Below, one piece after another: positions 17,470 to 23,782 of a DNA stretch of 24,343 nt. Each line of letters begins with the position of its first letter. Position 1 is the stretch's first letter. The DNA lies in the IMG/VR virus record IMGVR_UViG_3300027736_000243, positions 1 through 24,343 of that record; one strand, written 5' to 3'. Origin of the DNA: a virus. The notes below the pieces were generated by a model that worked only from the letters and a program-made list of their open reading frames with translations, was not told where the DNA came from and did no database searches. Position numbers and translations under genes: made by a program.

Positions 17470-17477
17470 TATTTATG
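17470..17477 (-). promoter_or_regulatory. CATAAATA late-promoter-like box for the gp48 operon
   Basis: The minus strand reads CATAAATA, one mismatch from the T4 late consensus, 26 nt before the gp48 ATG. A start of transcription about 6 nt downstream would leave a ~20-nt leader containing the SD, a normal late-gene layout. It overlaps the gp4 start codon. Confidence 0.45.
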
Positions 17478-17906
17478 TCATATAAAGGAATCTTTCACCC
17501 CAAAAACCCAAAGAAATATAACGGTAATGCTAACAATATTATCTATCGTTCTTCATGGGAAATCAGAGTAATGAAGTGGTTAGATGACAACCCCAAAGTT
17601 ATTTGGTGGGCATCGGAAGAGTTGCCGATACCTTATAAGTCTCCTATCGACCAAAGGGTGCATCGTTATTTTCCAGACTTCATCGTTAGGATCAAACGGA
17701 AAGATGGTCAGGAGATGACGATGGTGCTGGAAGTAAAGCCAGAGTCACAAACAAAACAACCAGTGCGAAGGCGCAAAACGGCACGGTTTATCCAAGAATC
17801 CGCAACATATGCCATCAATCAAGAGAAGTGGCGAGCAGCTGACTTATTTTGTAAAGAACATGGATGGCAATTTAAAGTGCTAACTGAAAAAGACTTAGGC
17901 ATTTGA
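17475..17906 (+). CDS. 4: Head completion protein gp4 (PD-(D/E)xK nuclease fold)
   Basis: A 143-aa protein near T4 gp4 (150 aa) in length and landmarks: 'GIFHPKNPKKYNGN' at the start, 'YRSSWEIRVMKWLDDNP' (24-40), 'HRYFPDFIV' (63-71) and 'VLEVKPESQTKQP' (84-96), then 'YAINQEKWRAADLF'. The catalytic set of the TnsA/PD-(D/E)xK fold is intact: Glu29, Asp68 and Glu86-x-Lys88. In T4, gp4 (also called 50/65) is needed to complete DNA-filled heads so that tails can join. The start matches T4 gp4 alignment, although the nearest SD (AGGAG at 17455) is 15 nt away. It heads the plus-strand operon, diverging from gp48 with a 31-nt gap. Confidence 0.92.
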   Translation: MSYKGIFHPKNPKKYNGNANNIIYRSSWEIRVMKWLDDNPKVIWWASEELPIPYKSPIDQRVHRYFPDFIVRIKRKDGQEMTMVLEVKPESQTKQPVRRRKTARFIQESATYAINQEKWRAADLFCKEHGWQFKVLTEKDLGI

Positions 17907-17918: not shown

Positions 17919-18497
17919 ATGACAAAATTACTTGATAGAATTAAAACATCGCTTGCAAAAGAAGGTCTAACTCCTAGAACCAATGCATCTAGAGCATGGT
18001 TACGGGCAAAAGTCAAAGACTTAAAACCAACTTCAGATAAGTTAATGGCAGATAGAGATAGACTTAAAAATAAATCTATGATTGGAAAAATGTATTTCTA
18101 TTTCTATGATCCAAAAACAAAAGACTCAATGCCTTATTATGATAGGTTTCCTCTAGTGATTCCTATTGAACGATATAACGATGGGTTCTTAGGACTAAAT
18201 TTACACTACATTCATCCAAAAAACAGAATGGTTTTGTTGGACAAATTAAGTGATACTATTTCTAATGATACTTATGATGAAAACACTAAATTAAAAATTA
18301 ATTACCGCTATTTGGCCGCAGCTTCTAAAATATTTGAAGCAACTCCTTGTATTAAAAGATATTTATTTACTCAAATAGAATCTCGATTTTTAGAAATCAC
18401 TGCTGATGAATGGGACATTGCTGCATTGTTACCTGTAGAATCATTTGTTGGTGCAAGCACAAGTAAAGTTTACGCAGATTCAAGGAAAAAATTCTAA
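17919..18497 (+). CDS. Probable DNA end protector gp2-like protein
   Basis: A 192-aa basic protein. The core, about residues 55-100, contains 'GKMYFYFYDPKTKDSMPYYD' and 'NDGFLGLNLHYIHPKNRM', and the C-terminal part 'ATPCIKRYLFTQIESRF' then 'DEWDIAALLPVESF'. From memory this resembles the conserved core of T4 gp2, the protein that caps packaged DNA ends against RecBCD; T4 gp2 is 274 aa and its gene adjoins gene 4, as here. I could not align it, so the name is held as probable rather than certain; the alternative is an unnamed conserved head or tail assembly protein of aquatic T4-like phages. The N-terminal ~50 residues are Lys/Arg-rich. Its stop overlaps the next start by one base (TAATG). Confidence 0.6.
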   Translation: MTKLLDRIKTSLAKEGLTPRTNASRAWLRAKVKDLKPTSDKLMADRDRLKNKSMIGKMYFYFYDPKTKDSMPYYDRFPLVIPIERYNDGFLGLNLHYIHPKNRMVLLDKLSDTISNDTYDENTKLKINYRYLAAASKIFEATPCIKRYLFTQIESRFLEITADEWDIAALLPVESFVGASTSKVYADSRKKF

Positions 18498-19246
18498 TGG
18501 CATTTTCACCAAATTTATTTCTCGCAAATGTAAGGTCCAAAGACGGATTAGCCAAAACTTGTAGGTACGAAGTTGTTCTTCCTATACCACCATATATCAA
18601 TTCATTTATTGGAAATTCAATATTTGAAAAGATTTTGAATTTTCCTAATTCAATTTTTAGTGATGTGTCGGACGCTATCAACTCGACATTTGGTCGTGGA
18701 GGACAACAAGATGAATATTCTAGAACATCAAATTCATCTATGTCCAGAAACTTGGCACTACAATGTGAAGCTGCAGAATTACCAGGCAAAACATTAACAA
18801 CTGCCGATGTTAAAATTTATGGACCAACTTTTAAAGTTCCATATCAAACACAATATGGTGATACATCACTAACTTTTTTATGTACCAACGAATTCTATGA
18901 AAGAAAATTATTTGACCGATGGATGGAAGCAATTCATCCTTCAGATACAAACAATTTAAGATTCCCAAAAGGTGATAAAACAAGGTATATGACAAACATT
19001 AAAATCATTCAATATGATGATTTTATCAAACAGATTTATGCAGTAGAATTGATTGATGCGTTTCCAATTGGTGTTGCACCACAATCATTGGGTTGGGCAG
19101 ATGATGGGTTTCATCGTCTTGTCATTTCTTTTGCATATCAAAAATATCGTACCATCTATGAAGGAACTTACGATATTGGTGCCGCAGCTGCCAGTTTATT
19201 TGGTGCGGCAGGATCAAGACTTTTACCATTCGGTAGAGCACTTTAA
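18497..19246 (+). CDS. Baseplate tail-tube initiator gp54-like protein
   Basis: A 249-aa protein with a tail-tube-type layout: an N-terminal 'LFLANVRSKDGLAKTCRYEV' strand, 'LQCEAAELPGKTLTTADVKI' (about 91-110) with 'YGPTFKVPY', then 'FLCTNEFYERKLFDRWMEAI' and 'KIIQYDDFIKQIYAVELIDAFPI'. These phrases are shared by tube and tube-initiator proteins (gp19, gp54) of T4-like phages. The gp54 role is preferred because the gene lies with gp48, gp53, gp4 and gp26 rather than with sheath gene 18. T4 gp54 is 320 aa. A second tube-like protein cannot be excluded. An AAGGA SD lies 10 nt before the ATG, and the start overlaps the upstream stop. Confidence 0.7.
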   Translation: MAFSPNLFLANVRSKDGLAKTCRYEVVLPIPPYINSFIGNSIFEKILNFPNSIFSDVSDAINSTFGRGGQQDEYSRTSNSSMSRNLALQCEAAELPGKTLTTADVKIYGPTFKVPYQTQYGDTSLTFLCTNEFYERKLFDRWMEAIHPSDTNNLRFPKGDKTRYMTNIKIIQYDDFIKQIYAVELIDAFPIGVAPQSLGWADDGFHRLVISFAYQKYRTIYEGTYDIGAAAASLFGAAGSRLLPFGRAL

Positions 19247-19267: not shown

Positions 19268-19999
19268 ATGCTACCTAAACTAGATGTTCCCATCTATGAA
19301 GTGAAACTTATTTCAACTGGAAAACCTATACGATTTAGGCCATTTTTAGTCAAAGAACAAAAACTTTTTCTAATGGCCGCAGAATCAGAAGACCCAAAAG
19401 AAACTGTTAATGTTATCAGACAAGTTTTAAAAAATTGTATCTTGGATGAAATTGACATTGACGGACTACCAACATTTGACCTTGAATATATTTTTATGCA
19501 TATGAGAGCAAGGTCAGTTGAAGAGGTTGTTGATTTACAATATAAATGTAATAACACCGTAAAGAATGATAAAGACGAAGATGTTCGTTGTAACGGAACT
19601 GTAGGTTTTCAATTCAACTTGTTGGAAATTGAACCAACAAAACATGCAGAACATACAAATCAAATTAAACTAACAGAAAATTTAGGTGTCTGTTTAAGAT
19701 ACCCAACATTTGAAATGGTTAAAAAATACGAAGACATGGATGAGAATGAAGTATTATCTCATATTCTTGTTGATTGTATTGATTACATATTTGATAAAGA
19801 ACAAATTTATTATGCAAAAGATTCAACGAAAGAAGAGTTGGAAGACTTTATTGATTCTATGCAGCAAAAAGATTTAGAAAAATTCAAAGACTTTTTTGAA
19901 AAAATGCCTGAGATTAAAAAAGATGTAAAATTTAAATGTCCAAAATGTAATTACGAAGAAGAAATTACAATTAAGGGCATGCAAAATTTTTTCGCTTAA
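19268..19999 (+). CDS. 26: Baseplate hub/assembly protein gp26, probable frameshift donor
   Basis: A 243-aa member of the T4 baseplate gp26 family (T4 gp26 is 208 aa). The start 'LPKLDVPIYEVKLISTGKPI' with 'RFRPFLVKEQKLFLMAAES' (1-40) is typical of the family. Four cysteines, Cys94 and Cys108 and a CPKC pair at 224-227, probably form a zinc ribbon. The SD (GAGGA, 4-nt spacer) is the best in the plus-strand operon. Position is telling: it lies between a tube-type gene and a tape-measure-like gene, where many tailed phages encode the tape-measure chaperone. The last codons (CAA AAT TTT TTC GCT TAA) contain overlapping -1 slippery heptamers, and a -1 frame ORF continues for 64 codons, so a 306-aa extended product is expected in addition to the 243-aa one. 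The frameshift is inferred. Confidence 0.85.
   Translation: MLPKLDVPIYEVKLISTGKPIRFRPFLVKEQKLFLMAAESEDPKETVNVIRQVLKNCILDEIDIDGLPTFDLEYIFMHMRARSVEEVVDLQYKCNNTVKNDKDEDVRCNGTVGFQFNLLEIEPTKHAEHTNQIKLTENLGVCLRYPTFEMVKKYEDMDENEVLSHILVDCIDYIFDKEQIYYAKDSTKEELEDFIDSMQQKDLEKFKDFFEKMPEIKKDVKFKCPKCNYEEEITIKGMQNFFA
19973..19993 (+). other. Putative programmed -1 ribosomal frameshift site at the end of gp26
   Basis: In the gp26 frame the sequence offers two overlapping X-XXY-YYZ heptamers, A-AAT-TTT (19984-19990) and T-TTT-TTC (19987-19993), two codons before the gp26 TAA. An SD-like AAGGG (19973-19977) lies 6-9 nt upstream, an arrangement known to stimulate -1 slippage at dnaX. After the slip the ribosome reads CGC at 19993 and continues for 64 codons. 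Elements are seen directly; slippage is inferred. Confidence 0.7.
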
Positions 20000-20187
20000 T
20001 ATTTCGTTATGATACATTAGGTAACTATTATCAGACAAACTTTGCATTAATGCAACATCACAAATATAGTTTGTCTGAGCTTGAAAACATGTTACCTTGG
20101 GAGAGAAGCATTTATGTTGGACTTTTAATTAAATACCTTGAAGAAGAAAAAGAACGAATTGCATTACAAAAACAAAGTAGAAGATAA
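19993..20187 (+). CDS. Tail assembly chaperone extension (gpT-like), read by -1 frameshift from gp26
   Basis: This frame is open from 19975 to the TAA at 20185-20187 but has no ATG until 20050, which would give only 45 aa and has no SD. Before that ATG the reading already looks coding ('YDTLGNYYQTNFALMQHHKY'), so the true entry is upstream, most simply by -1 frameshift from gp26 at 19984-19993. The 64-residue extension contains 'SLSELENMLPWERSIYVGLL' followed by a charged helix. A motif of the form PW-E-R...LL-x-E is typical of the GT/T-domain part of tape-measure chaperones in lambda-like phages. The stop overlaps the ATG of the tape-measure-like gene by one base (TAATG), so translation through this frame would deliver ribosomes to the next start. 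An independent non-ATG start is the alternative. Confidence 0.7.
   Translation, partial: RLIFRYDTLGNYYQTNFALMQHHKYSLSELENMLPWERSIYVGLLIKYLEEEKERIALQKQSRR
20031..20078 (+). repeat. Inverted repeat with nested palindrome downstream of the frameshift site
   Basis: TCAGACAAAC (20031-20040) pairs perfectly with GTTTGTCTGA (20069-20078), a 10-bp stem. Within its loop TTGCATTAATGCAA (20042-20055) is itself a perfect palindrome. It lies inside coding sequence, 38 nt after the slippery site, farther than classical stimulatory stems. Confidence 0.6.
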
Positions 20188-21902
20188 TGGCAAAACAACA
20201 ACCAATTCTTGACCTGCTTGCTAAAGAGTTAGGGTATAAAGACGGCGGCGACTTAAAAAAGAGACTGAAGCAAAGTCATGGAGATGATTTTGCTGGAAGT
20301 TTAAAAAGTCGATTAGAAGACGGTCAAGGTATTGGTGAATCTTTGAAAGGCGGTTTTTCTGATGCAAAAGAAGGAATTAAAAAAGCATTTAGTGCAAAAA
20401 GTATAAAGCAAAAATTAGTTCAAGGTGCTTTTGGTGGTGATAATGTTCTTTCTGCATTTATTCGTGGAAAAATAAAAGGTAAAAAATTAGAAGCTAATTC
20501 ATTATCTCCAACACCTGTAGGTGCCGAAAGCGGAAGTGTTGAAGGTGGAGAAAGTTCTATATTAGCAAGTATTGCAAAGAGTTCCATGGTTCTGCCGGAT
20601 ATGGCAAGAGACATGCATACTATGCAATTGAATGTCAAAGAATTAGTTAAAGTTAAAGGTGGTAAACCAGCAACTGGTGCATCTTCTTTTTTCCGTAAAC
20701 AAAGAGAAGAAGAAGAAAAAGCCGAAAATGACCGCAAAAAATTAGGAACAAAAAAACAAGAACCTGGTGTTCCAAAACCAGCGGCTGAAGGTGGTGGATT
20801 TTTAAGTGGAATTTTTGATATGTTGAAGAATGGCCTATTCTCAGCTGCCAAGTTTATTTTCAATCCAAAAAATATAATGAAAATCATTGGTAAACTTGCG
20901 TTACCATTATTAATAATTAGCACACTATTTTCGGGTATCACAGATGGTTTTAAAAAGTATCAAGAAACTGGTAGTTTAAGTGATGCAATAGTTGCAGGTT
21001 TAGGAGGAATGTTAAAGTTTTTAACATTTGGTATATTTGATGAGAGTACAATACAAGATGTATTCAATACACTAACAGATGTATTCAAACCAGTTATTGA
21101 TACTATATCTGGAATATTTGATAGTGTTAAAGGATTTTTTAAAAATATATTTGGTGATACAATTGATGTAAAAGAAATATCTACAACAACTTCAGCCGGC
21201 GTTACTCCAAAAATGGATGTTCCAGCTGCAGCAGATAGCATAAAGAAAGATGTTATTGCTGCCTCAGATGGTGCGGGACCACCATCATCAACTCCACCAA
21301 CTATTGCTGCAAAAACTGAGACTTCTACATCTCCAACTCCAGCGGGTGTTGAATTAGGCAAAAAAGCAGAAACAAGTCAATCTGGTGCTCAAGATTATTT
21401 AACCAAAATAATTGGTATCAAACAAAATGATGACGGTACATATACAGATACTAATACACAAAAAACTCTATCTGAGAGTGAAGTAAAGAATAGAATATCC
21501 GCAACAGGACAAAATCCTGATAAAGTATTAGAAACACTCAAAGGTGGACAACCAAAAGGCACAATGGAGGCTTCAGGACCCGCATCATCTGGTGTTGGTG
21601 GTGCAGCTGCAAGTGCATCTGGTGGCGGAGGTGGTGGTGAAGGAGGTGGTGAGTCTGGTGGTGCCGCTTCTGCAAGTGCAGTTTCTCCTTCACCAACAGC
21701 AGAAGAACCCAAGAGTGGTGAATCAATTTCATCCGCATCAACACAAGTTGCAGAATCACAACGTATGGAGTCTGCTGCTGACCAAGGTTCAGTTATTAAT
21801 TCACCTACAAATAATAATTCAACAAGTTCTGAAGGCAAACCAAGCAAACAAACTGCGAGTGCCTATGATGAAGATTTTGTTAATAGATTGGTAACAACAT
21901 GA
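20187..21902 (+). CDS. Tape-measure-like tail protein
   Basis: A 571-aa protein, near the length of T4 tape measure gp29 (590 aa). It is Lys/Gly-rich and helical at the N-terminus, has 'VLPDMARDMHTMQLNVKEL' at about 136-154, a hydrophobic membrane-type helix at ~232-252 ('KLALPLLIISTLFSGI'), then amphipathic 'IQDVFNTLTDVFKPVIDTIS' and 'FDSVKGFFKNIFG' helices. Residues ~450-500 are a Gly/Ala/Ser-rich linker. The end carries 'SISSASTQVAESQR' (513-526) and 'INSPTNNNSTSS', short motifs also found at the end of the next protein. Hydrophobic helices in a helical rod are usual in tape measures, which thread through the host membrane. Immediately upstream is the putative chaperone frameshift pair, supporting the call. 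A second possibility is an injected internal tail protein. ATG overlaps the upstream stop. Confidence 0.6.
   Translation: MAKQQPILDLLAKELGYKDGGDLKKRLKQSHGDDFAGSLKSRLEDGQGIGESLKGGFSDAKEGIKKAFSAKSIKQKLVQGAFGGDNVLSAFIRGKIKGKKLEANSLSPTPVGAESGSVEGGESSILASIAKSSMVLPDMARDMHTMQLNVKELVKVKGGKPATGASSFFRKQREEEEKAENDRKKLGTKKQEPGVPKPAAEGGGFLSGIFDMLKNGLFSAAKFIFNPKNIMKIIGKLALPLLIISTLFSGITDGFKKYQETGSLSDAIVAGLGGMLKFLTFGIFDESTIQDVFNTLTDVFKPVIDTISGIFDSVKGFFKNIFGDTIDVKEISTTTSAGVTPKMDVPAAADSIKKDVIAASDGAGPPSSTPPTIAAKTETSTSPTPAGVELGKKAETSQSGAQDYLTKIIGIKQNDDGTYTDTNTQKTLSESEVKNRISATGQNPDKVLETLKGGQPKGTMEASGPASSGVGGAAASASGGGGGGEGGGESGGAASASAVSPSPTAEEPKSGESISSASTQVAESQRMESAADQGSVINSPTNNNSTSSEGKPSKQTASAYDEDFVNRLVTT
21723..21764 (+). 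repeat. C-terminal motif repeat, copy 1
   Basis: Fourteen codons encoding SISSASTQVAESQR in the 571-aa protein. A closely similar stretch, in both protein and DNA, recurs at 23600 in the next gene, pointing to duplication or recombination between the two genes. Confidence 0.7.
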
Positions 21903-23782
21903 AATTACCAGAAGGTTTAAAATCTGTTATCTCAACCAAAGTTTTGGGTAAACCAAAAGAATCTTCACCAGGATCACCAGAAGCTTCTGATGATAAAAAA
22001 GATAAAGTTACACCATTAAAACAAATAGCAGATAACTTTTCATTACTACCTGATATTGCTAAAAGTTTAAATATTACTAGACAAAATATTTTTAAACTTG
22101 TCAAACTTGAAGGTGGTGAAGGAACAAAAGCAGATAACTTAGCACCAGTTGGAGGAAGCGAAACTCCTAAAGATTCATCTAGTGCCAACAGTTCTCCAAC
22201 ACCAAATAAGAAATCTGAGTCTGGTGGTAAAAAGGGTGGTATTATGTCTAAATTGGGACCACTACTTAAAGTTGGTGCAATCATCTTTGCACTATCACAA
22301 ATACCTGGTGGTTTTATTAAAGATATGTTTGATGGTATCGTTGATTCTATTAAAGAGTTGGCGAGTGCATTATGGGAAGAAATTAGTACCGCCTTTACTT
22401 CACTATTAGATACATTTAAAACATGGTTTAATGAAGTTGTTGACCCAATACTCCAACAAATAAAAAATTTTCTAAAACCTATTTGGGATAAAATTACAGA
22501 ATTTTTCAAACCTATTTTTGATTGGGTTGGTGATAAGATAAAAACTGTTGTTGAAACATTACAACCTGTGTTTGATTTTATGAAAGGTGTCTTTGATAAA
22601 ATTACTGGTGTTCTAAAAGGACTAATGAACAAGTATGAATTTCTGCGTGAGGGTGTAGAGAAAGCCAAAAACTTTTTAGGTTTGGGTGAAAAGAAACCAG
22701 AAACACCTAAAGAAGTAAAAGGACCACTTGAAAAGAGTAAAACAACAACTACTAATAATGAAACTGCGGCCGAAAAAGCAAAAAAGAATTTAACACCTTC
22801 TCAGTTAAGATGGTTGGGTAATGCAGATGCGACTGATCCATATATTATGGCAAGAATGCCGCCACCACAACCTGGTGAAAAAGGTGGACCTCCTGCCCAA
22901 CCAGGTCAACCTGCACCTCAGGCGCCTGCGGGTCCTGCTGTAACACCGCCTTCACAAGCACCTACTGCACCATCACCCGCAGAAAAGCCAAGCAAACCAT
23001 CTGATACTAAACCTGGAAAGATAAGTTCTCAACAAGGTGAAAGTATTATGATTAAAGCATTGGATGATGCTAAAATTACCGACCCAAATGCAAGAGCCGC
23101 AATCATGGCACAGATTGGCCATGAGTCTGGTAATTTTACCACATTAAGTGAAAATTTAAACTACAAAGCACCAACCTTGATGAAGTTGTTTCCTAAGAAG
23201 TTTGCAGGAGAACAAGATGCACAGGCAGTTGCTGCAGGTGGTCCAGAAAAAGTTGCTGAAAGGCTATACTCAGGACGCATGGGAAACGCACCAGAAGGTG
23301 CAGGAGAAGGTTTTAAGTATCGTGGTCGTGGATTCATTCAACTAACTGGTAAACAGAACTATACCAAGTTTGGGTATGCAAGTAATCCAGATGCAGTTGC
23401 CGAACCTGCAGCTGCAGCTGAGACTGCTATTAAATATATGTTGGGGTATAAAGGTGATTGGTCAGATATAACCAAAGTGACAAAATTTGTTAATGGTGGT
23501 ACTATTGGATTGGAAGACAGATTAAAACATTTTAAAGCATATCTAAACGATCCAAAGATTACAACAGTTGGTGCGGCGTCTACTGTGCCAAGTGGTGGTT
23601 CAGTTTCTTCAGCATCTACACAAGTTGCGGCAGACCAAAGACAACAACAGAAACCACAAACACCTGTTATAATAAATGCACCATCAACAACTAATACAAG
23701 CGTAGTTAAAAACGAAACAAAAGCTGCACCAGTTAATACTGCAACTGGTGGTGCAAACGCTTTATTATCAAGAGCGACATAA
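21899..23782 (+). CDS. Tape-measure-related protein with GH19 lysozyme/chitinase domain
   Basis: A 627-aa protein with four parts. Residues ~40-70 ('FSLLPDIAKSLNITRQNIF' then LVKLEGG) resemble residues ~134-160 of the upstream protein. Residues ~115-240 hold a hydrophobic segment ('LGPLLKVGAIIFALSQIPGG') and repeated amphipathic 'FKPIFDWVGDKIKTVVETL' helices. A Pro/Ala/Gln-rich linker spans ~315-375. Residues ~381-555 are a GH19 domain: 'IMAQIGHESGNF' with His408-Glu409 as the catalytic acid region, 'LNYKAPTLMKLFPKKF', 'YSGRMGNAPEGAGEGFKYRG' and 'RGRGFIQLTGKQNY' (about 475-488). GH19 enzymes of phages cleave peptidoglycan glycan strands. The tail after the enzyme has 'SVSSASTQVAADQR'. The start overlaps the upstream stop by ATGA. 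It probably supplies tail-borne wall hydrolysis, since gp5 here lacks a lysozyme domain; a free endolysin role is less likely given the tail-type N-terminus. Confidence 0.8.
   Translation: MKLPEGLKSVISTKVLGKPKESSPGSPEASDDKKDKVTPLKQIADNFSLLPDIAKSLNITRQNIFKLVKLEGGEGTKADNLAPVGGSETPKDSSSANSSPTPNKKSESGGKKGGIMSKLGPLLKVGAIIFALSQIPGGFIKDMFDGIVDSIKELASALWEEISTAFTSLLDTFKTWFNEVVDPILQQIKNFLKPIWDKITEFFKPIFDWVGDKIKTVVETLQPVFDFMKGVFDKITGVLKGLMNKYEFLREGVEKAKNFLGLGEKKPETPKEVKGPLEKSKTTTTNNETAAEKAKKNLTPSQLRWLGNADATDPYIMARMPPPQPGEKGGPPAQPGQPAPQAPAGPAVTPPSQAPTAPSPAEKPSKPSDTKPGKISSQQGESIMIKALDDAKITDPNARAAIMAQIGHESGNFTTLSENLNYKAPTLMKLFPKKFAGEQDAQAVAAGGPEKVAERLYSGRMGNAPEGAGEGFKYRGRGFIQLTGKQNYTKFGYASNPDAVAEPAAAAETAIKYMLGYKGDWSDITKVTKFVNGGTIGLEDRLKHFKAYLNDPKITTVGAASTVPSGGSVSSASTQVAADQRQQQKPQTPVIINAPSTTNTSVVKNETKAAPVNTATGGANALLSRAT
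23600..23641 (+). repeat. C-terminal motif repeat, copy 2
   Basis: Fourteen codons encoding SVSSASTQVAADQR, matching 10 of 14 residues of the copy at 21723 and sharing the 12-base run ACACAAGTTGC plus flanks. It follows the GH19 domain. Confidence 0.7.

Follow-up and report, generated by a model that had tools for sequence, protein, structure and literature searches.

Frameshifted chaperone genes in tailed phages

Tail assembly chaperones made by frameshifting are a classic kind of phage protein, present in lambda and in many other phages, and the lambda G/GT, P2 E/E+E' and Mu 41/42 types were reportedly surveyed by Xu, Hendrix and Duda in 2004. The locus described here resembles lambda G/GT in several respects: a short form and a long form predicted to arise by a -1 frameshift, a slip site near the 3' end of the short-form gene, a predicted tail assembly chaperone fold, and a location downstream of a tail-tube-type gene and probably upstream of a tape-measure gene. 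It differs from lambda G/GT in its T4-like protein family (PF12322), its longer N-terminal part and its heptamer, T-TTT-TTC.

Among T4-like phages, the same gene pair is the subject of a paper on chaperone genes by Vladimirov, Gautam and Davidson (2022, Virology 566:9-15). Its title emphasises a mechanism other than frameshifting, and subsequent work refers to it both on poly-T slip sites in the short-form genes of T4-like phages (PMC12846349) and on the occurrence, in some of these phages, of short as well as long copies of the gene (PMC10885494). The sequence-only reading of the present locus had known of no slip described for a T4-like gp26; that statement has to be given up, since poly-T slip signals in T4-like phages are credited to the 2022 paper (PMC12846349). 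Judging from these citations (PMC12846349, PMC10885494), the kind is known and its breadth across lineages may be new. In the Vandenendeviridae and Andersonviridae (phage Adele), a conserved -1 slip site also lies at the 3' end of the short-form gene, and the downstream ORF has been misannotated as a separate gene (PMC12846349). These belong to other phage families, however, and their invariant motif is GTTTTT, compared to TTTTTTC here.

The junction at the end of gp26

The window analyzed is a stretch of 24,343 bases, an IMG/VR virus record from an uncultured T4-like phage. Its features around the junction are listed in Table 1.

Table 1. Features of the chaperone locus, numbered from the first base of the window
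Feature	Positions	Strand	Remarks
Tail-tube-type gene	18497..19246	+	directly upstream of gp26; 249 aa; phrog_45 tail tube, E 5.5e-33
gp26, short form	19268..19999	+	243 aa; stop 19997-19999; probable N-terminal tail assembly chaperone
Predicted frameshift fusion gp26-gp51C, long form	19268..20187	+	306 aa
SD-like AAGGG, possible stimulator	19973..19977	+	9 nt upstream of T-TTT-TTC
A-AAT-TTT, overlapping slippery heptamer	19984..19990	+	not conserved
T-TTT-TTC, canonical -1 slippery heptamer in the right frame	19987..19993	+	one codon before the gp26 stop
-1 frame continuation	19993..20187	+	64 codons and stop (20185-20187); C-terminal domain of the long form
First ATG of the -1 frame	20050..20052	+	18 codons into the conserved region
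Downstream gene, tape-measure position	20187..21902	+	571 aa; start overlaps the stop of the -1 ORF

The last codons of gp26, ATG CAA AAT TTT TTC GCT TAA (19979-19999), contain both of the overlapping heptamers that the sequence-only reading had pointed out. The other elements it had described are likewise in place, namely, the SD-like AAGGG upstream, the open -1 frame that would yield products of the two predicted lengths, and the overlap with the downstream gene, whose ATG has one base (20187) in common with the stop of the -1 ORF. In-frame slippery heptamers are frequent, and 15 genes of the window hold 63 of them. The two that end gp26 are the only ones at which the -1 frame stays open beyond the end of the gene; outside this site, no -1 run exceeds 40 codons, and the longest terminates within its own gene.

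Conservation of the slip site

The -1 frame continuation was found in all of the first 161 related loci and in all of the 143 distinct related loci. The codons at the slip site are TTT TTC in 137 of these 143 and TTT TTT in 2; as a control, Phe-Phe pairs elsewhere in gp26 form T-TTT-TTC in 1 case out of 142. The codon that precedes TTT is AAT (75/143), AGT (53/143), GAT (8/143), TCT or GCT in all but a few loci, and it therefore ends in T whatever residue is encoded. The T-TTT is also kept in 13 of 13 distant lineages, among them phages of Vibrio, Cronobacter, Aeromonas, Pseudomonas, Stenotrophomonas, Ochrobactrum, Pelagibacter and Desulfovibrio. Calculated from each lineage's own gp26 codon usage, the joint chance of this is about 10^-7.5, a figure that is only rough because the 13 lineages have common ancestry. 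Across the related loci, the arrangement goes far beyond chance.

Only one of the two heptamers proposed as the slip site holds up in the relatives. T-TTT-TTC is kept at the same codon, distant phages included, as the sequence-only reading had expected of a programmed site. A-AAT-TTT is not conserved and can be ruled out as the operative site, given the AGT and GAT codons that stand in place of its AAT.

Coding of the -1 frame

Before the slip site, substitutions among the relatives favour third positions of the 0 frame (0.58 vs 0.42 and 0.21). From +3 to +53 after the gp26 stop, upstream of the first ATG, the preference shifts to third positions of the -1 frame (0.46 vs 0.15 and 0.26), in agreement with the earlier observation that this frame reads as coding before its first ATG. 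The 0-frame residue after the Phe-Phe pair varies among the related loci (V, G, A, E, I or D). The first -1-frame residue after the pair is Arg in 134 of 143 loci, and the next is Leu, Ile, Val or Met.

No ATG, GTG or TTG is found in the -1 frame within 15 nt of the gp26 stop in 126 of the 143 loci, and the first ATG sits at +53 from the stop in 93. The -1 frame is open, is under coding constraint from the slip onward and has no start codon of its own. The sequence-only reading had named two of these features, codon-level conservation that begins at the slip and the lack of a conserved ATG, as marks of a frameshift, and the relatives bear out both. The coding pattern and the absence of start codons are in line with continuous translation across the junction and at odds with a separate start.

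Relationship to T4 gp26 and gp51

The gp26 of the window matches PF12322 (T4_baseplate) with an E value of 1.7e-61 and 208.2 bits, against a cut-off of 24.5, and phrog_150 with an E value of 5.9e-67. The -1 peptide matches phrog_634, the baseplate hub assembly catalyst or gp51 family (E 2.9e-27), as well as positions 231-278 of phrog_150, exactly where gp26 stops. In T4 itself, PF12322 spans all of gp26 and residues 1-201 of gp51, and phrog_150 matches gp51 over nearly its whole length. Both parts of the locus are therefore assignable to the family, gp26 by its own match and the -1 part by its similarity to C-terminal gp51.

A consistent result came from a profile of about 30 diverse gp26/-1 fusions, all of them predicted. 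T4 gp51 aligns to this profile across the junction, through residue 243, whereas T4 gp26 aligns only up to the junction. On these alignments, the -1 peptide, which the sequence-only reading had called gpT-like, represents the C-terminal portion of T4 gp51. T4 gp26 corresponds to the short form and T4 gp51 to the fusion, with homology along the whole length, but T4 has separate genes for the two forms. Its gp26 ends in GAG TTC TTT GAG TTA CTA TAA, with no slip site, and its gp51 is a single ORF that runs through the junction point. By homology, then, the T4 group makes the same two forms from two genes, 26 for the short form and 51 for the long form in frame. Genes 26 and 51 are divergently arranged in T2 and T4 and in tandem in RB16. 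In a tree of gp26 and gp51, the T4-type gp51 sequences cluster together; with its root and its long branches (RB16), the tree is compatible with either order of slip and duplication.

Predicted fold and neighboring genes

An AlphaFold2 model of gp26 was of good quality, with a mean pLDDT of 86. In a second-look comparison, residues 1-94 of the model aligned with 3fgx (Z 8.0), 2ob9 (Z 7.5) and 3klu (Z 7.0), all of them phage tail assembly chaperones (PMC9603447), and the next entry scored 5.2. Values of Z from 7 to 8 are moderate and can be reached by unrelated models, but it is telling, for a predicted structure, that the three top matches are all known chaperones. The N-terminal part would thus have a tail assembly chaperone fold, at a moderate Z. 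Foldseek returned no significant match for the gp26 model, and nothing at E 0.001 for a model of T4-type gp51; the latter, a natural long form, aligned with the HK97 chaperone 2ob9 at a Z of only 3.7. Sequence searches of solved structures with gp26 and T4 gp51 found no match. The earlier suggestion that gp26 is a chaperone gains support from its homology to T4 gp26 and gp51 together with the predicted fold, and we infer a role on the tape measure from the place of the gene, the homology and the fold.

The gene order that had been proposed, tube, gp26, -1 ORF and tape measure, stands on the upstream side, where the neighbor is of the tail tube type. The downstream product has no family match of its own, tape-measure families included. 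Comparing it directly with T4 gp29 produced only weak scores, from a tiny database, and these were given no weight. Genes that occupy this position in HTVC008M, Ochrobactrum phage OC and Vibrio phage K491 do match tape-measure families. Among relatives (L174, L175, L176 and others), the gene at this position ranges from about 440 to more than 1,000 aa and diverges very fast, features that would fit a ruler of tail length. For the second gene after the chaperone pair (21899-23782, 627 aa), the middle part resembles tape-measure families, and the C-terminal part matches phrog_181, an endolysin family (E 3.6e-47). Further upstream, a head-closure gene (17475-17906, phrog_218) has an N-terminal TnsA-like endonuclease domain (PF08722, E 1.7e-23), as in T4-like gp4.

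Possible stimulators of the slip

Predicted pairing with the anti-SD sequence is stronger upstream of the slip site than in control windows of gp26 (mean of -5.2 vs -1.2 kcal/mol). The Lys codon within the SD-like site is AAG in 57 cases vs AAA in 17, although AAA leads elsewhere. The AAG preference and the pairing may come partly from constraint on the protein, the Lys/Glu-Gly residues being conserved. A downstream stem or pseudoknot can be set aside as a stimulator: among 62 sequences, no consensus structure emerged over 50, 70 or 94 nt, and the 80 nt downstream in the window itself fold no better than shuffled sequences (z of -0.97).

Alternative explanations

The -1 ORF could instead encode a separate small protein, a short gp51 whose translation either reinitiates past the gp26 stop or begins at a start codon of its own. 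Many records annotate it as its own gene, among them those of S-ShM2, S-RIM4 and HTVC008M, an ATG or TTG occurs near the gp26 stop in a small number of the 143 loci, and in vibriophages and one Stenotrophomonas phage an ATG overlaps that stop (TAATG, TGATG); the same phages have the heptamer as well. However, the 126 loci noted above have no start candidate near the stop, the first ATG, usually at +53, lies deep in conserved coding sequence, and the annotated starts of the ORF vary among records. A separate protein would also leave the conserved T-TTT-TTC without explanation, and T4 gp51 has both parts in one chain. We consider this explanation improbable, with reinitiation possible in the vibriophages, the Stenotrophomonas phage and exceptions of the Ackermannviridae type. 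The latter are four phages, Ackermannviridae and one similar vibriophage (L168 at 3672, L169 at 3741, L172 at 3657 and L204 at 3720), in which a gp51-type C-terminal domain lies in the -1 frame without T-TTT-TTC, two of the four having TAATG; they may use reinitiation or another slip. As to annotation, the -1 part is not annotated at all in S-WAM1 and S-CAM1 (L174, 4013-4204, and L176, 4019-4204), and a gap is left between gp26 and the next gene. The junction might also be a neutral remnant with no programmed slip, either an in-frame long gene broken in its T-run or a sequencing error, given that such runs are liable to length errors and mutations and that the heptamer alone is so frequent in the window. 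Yet the same arrangement and heptamer recur across the loci examined, isolates included, and the -1 part remains open and under codon-level constraint. Unless one error is common to all relatives, conservation refutes the remnant, and we give it almost no credence.

A different objection accepts the slip but takes both forms to be structural parts of the hub rather than tape-measure chaperones. Most records annotate gp26 as a baseplate hub subunit, and genetic studies put T4 gp26 in the hub (PMC3004832). Against this, the same review counts T4 gp26 and gp51 among the hub assembly chaperones, and the finished T4 particle lacks gp51 (PMC3004832); moreover, the predicted gp26 fold matches solved tail assembly chaperones, and the gene adjoins the tape-measure position. 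Structural roles for both forms thus seem unlikely, if not negligibly so. The explanation that we hold with high confidence is that gp26 and the -1 ORF form a single gene from which two products arise, a chaperone pair made by a -1 slip.

Proposed mechanism and implications

According to this model, a ribosome translating gp26 would reach T-TTT-TTC with Phe tRNAs in its P and A sites. The majority of ribosomes would read one further codon and then stop, which gives the short form, while a fraction would slip back one base, with both tRNAs re-pairing with TTT TTT, and would continue in the -1 frame to give the long form. The SD-like AAGGG is a candidate pause signal that may increase the rate of slipping. 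By analogy with lambda G/GT, the tape-measure protein would be covered by many short copies and a few long ones, the latter recruiting tail tube subunits through their extra domain, and both forms would then leave the finished tail.

The groups in which the slip is predicted comprise cyanophages, pelagiphages, marine vibriophages, several Pseudomonas, Stenotrophomonas, Aeromonas, Cronobacter, Ochrobactrum and Desulfovibrio phages, and uncultured ones. We suggest tentatively that the T-TTT-TTC slip is a widespread and perhaps the older route to the gp26/gp51 pair in T4-like phages, that the T4 group switched to two genes, and that this had not previously been set out at such breadth; taken together, these proposals are somewhat less likely to be right than wrong. 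Sullivan et al. (2010) described cyanophage and marine vibriophage gp51 as lacking the first ~200 residues of T4 gp51 (PMC3037559), an apparent loss that would be explained if gp26 supplies those residues through the slip.

If the reading is right, it would correct a recurrent annotation error, in which the small gp51 or hypothetical protein after gp26 in cyanophages and their relatives is in fact the end of a frameshift product. It would also tie gp26 and gp51, the hub assembly chaperones of T4 with a long-obscure role, to the lambda G/GT system, and it would offer a testable case of one protein pair for which many lineages use a slip and the T4 group uses two genes.
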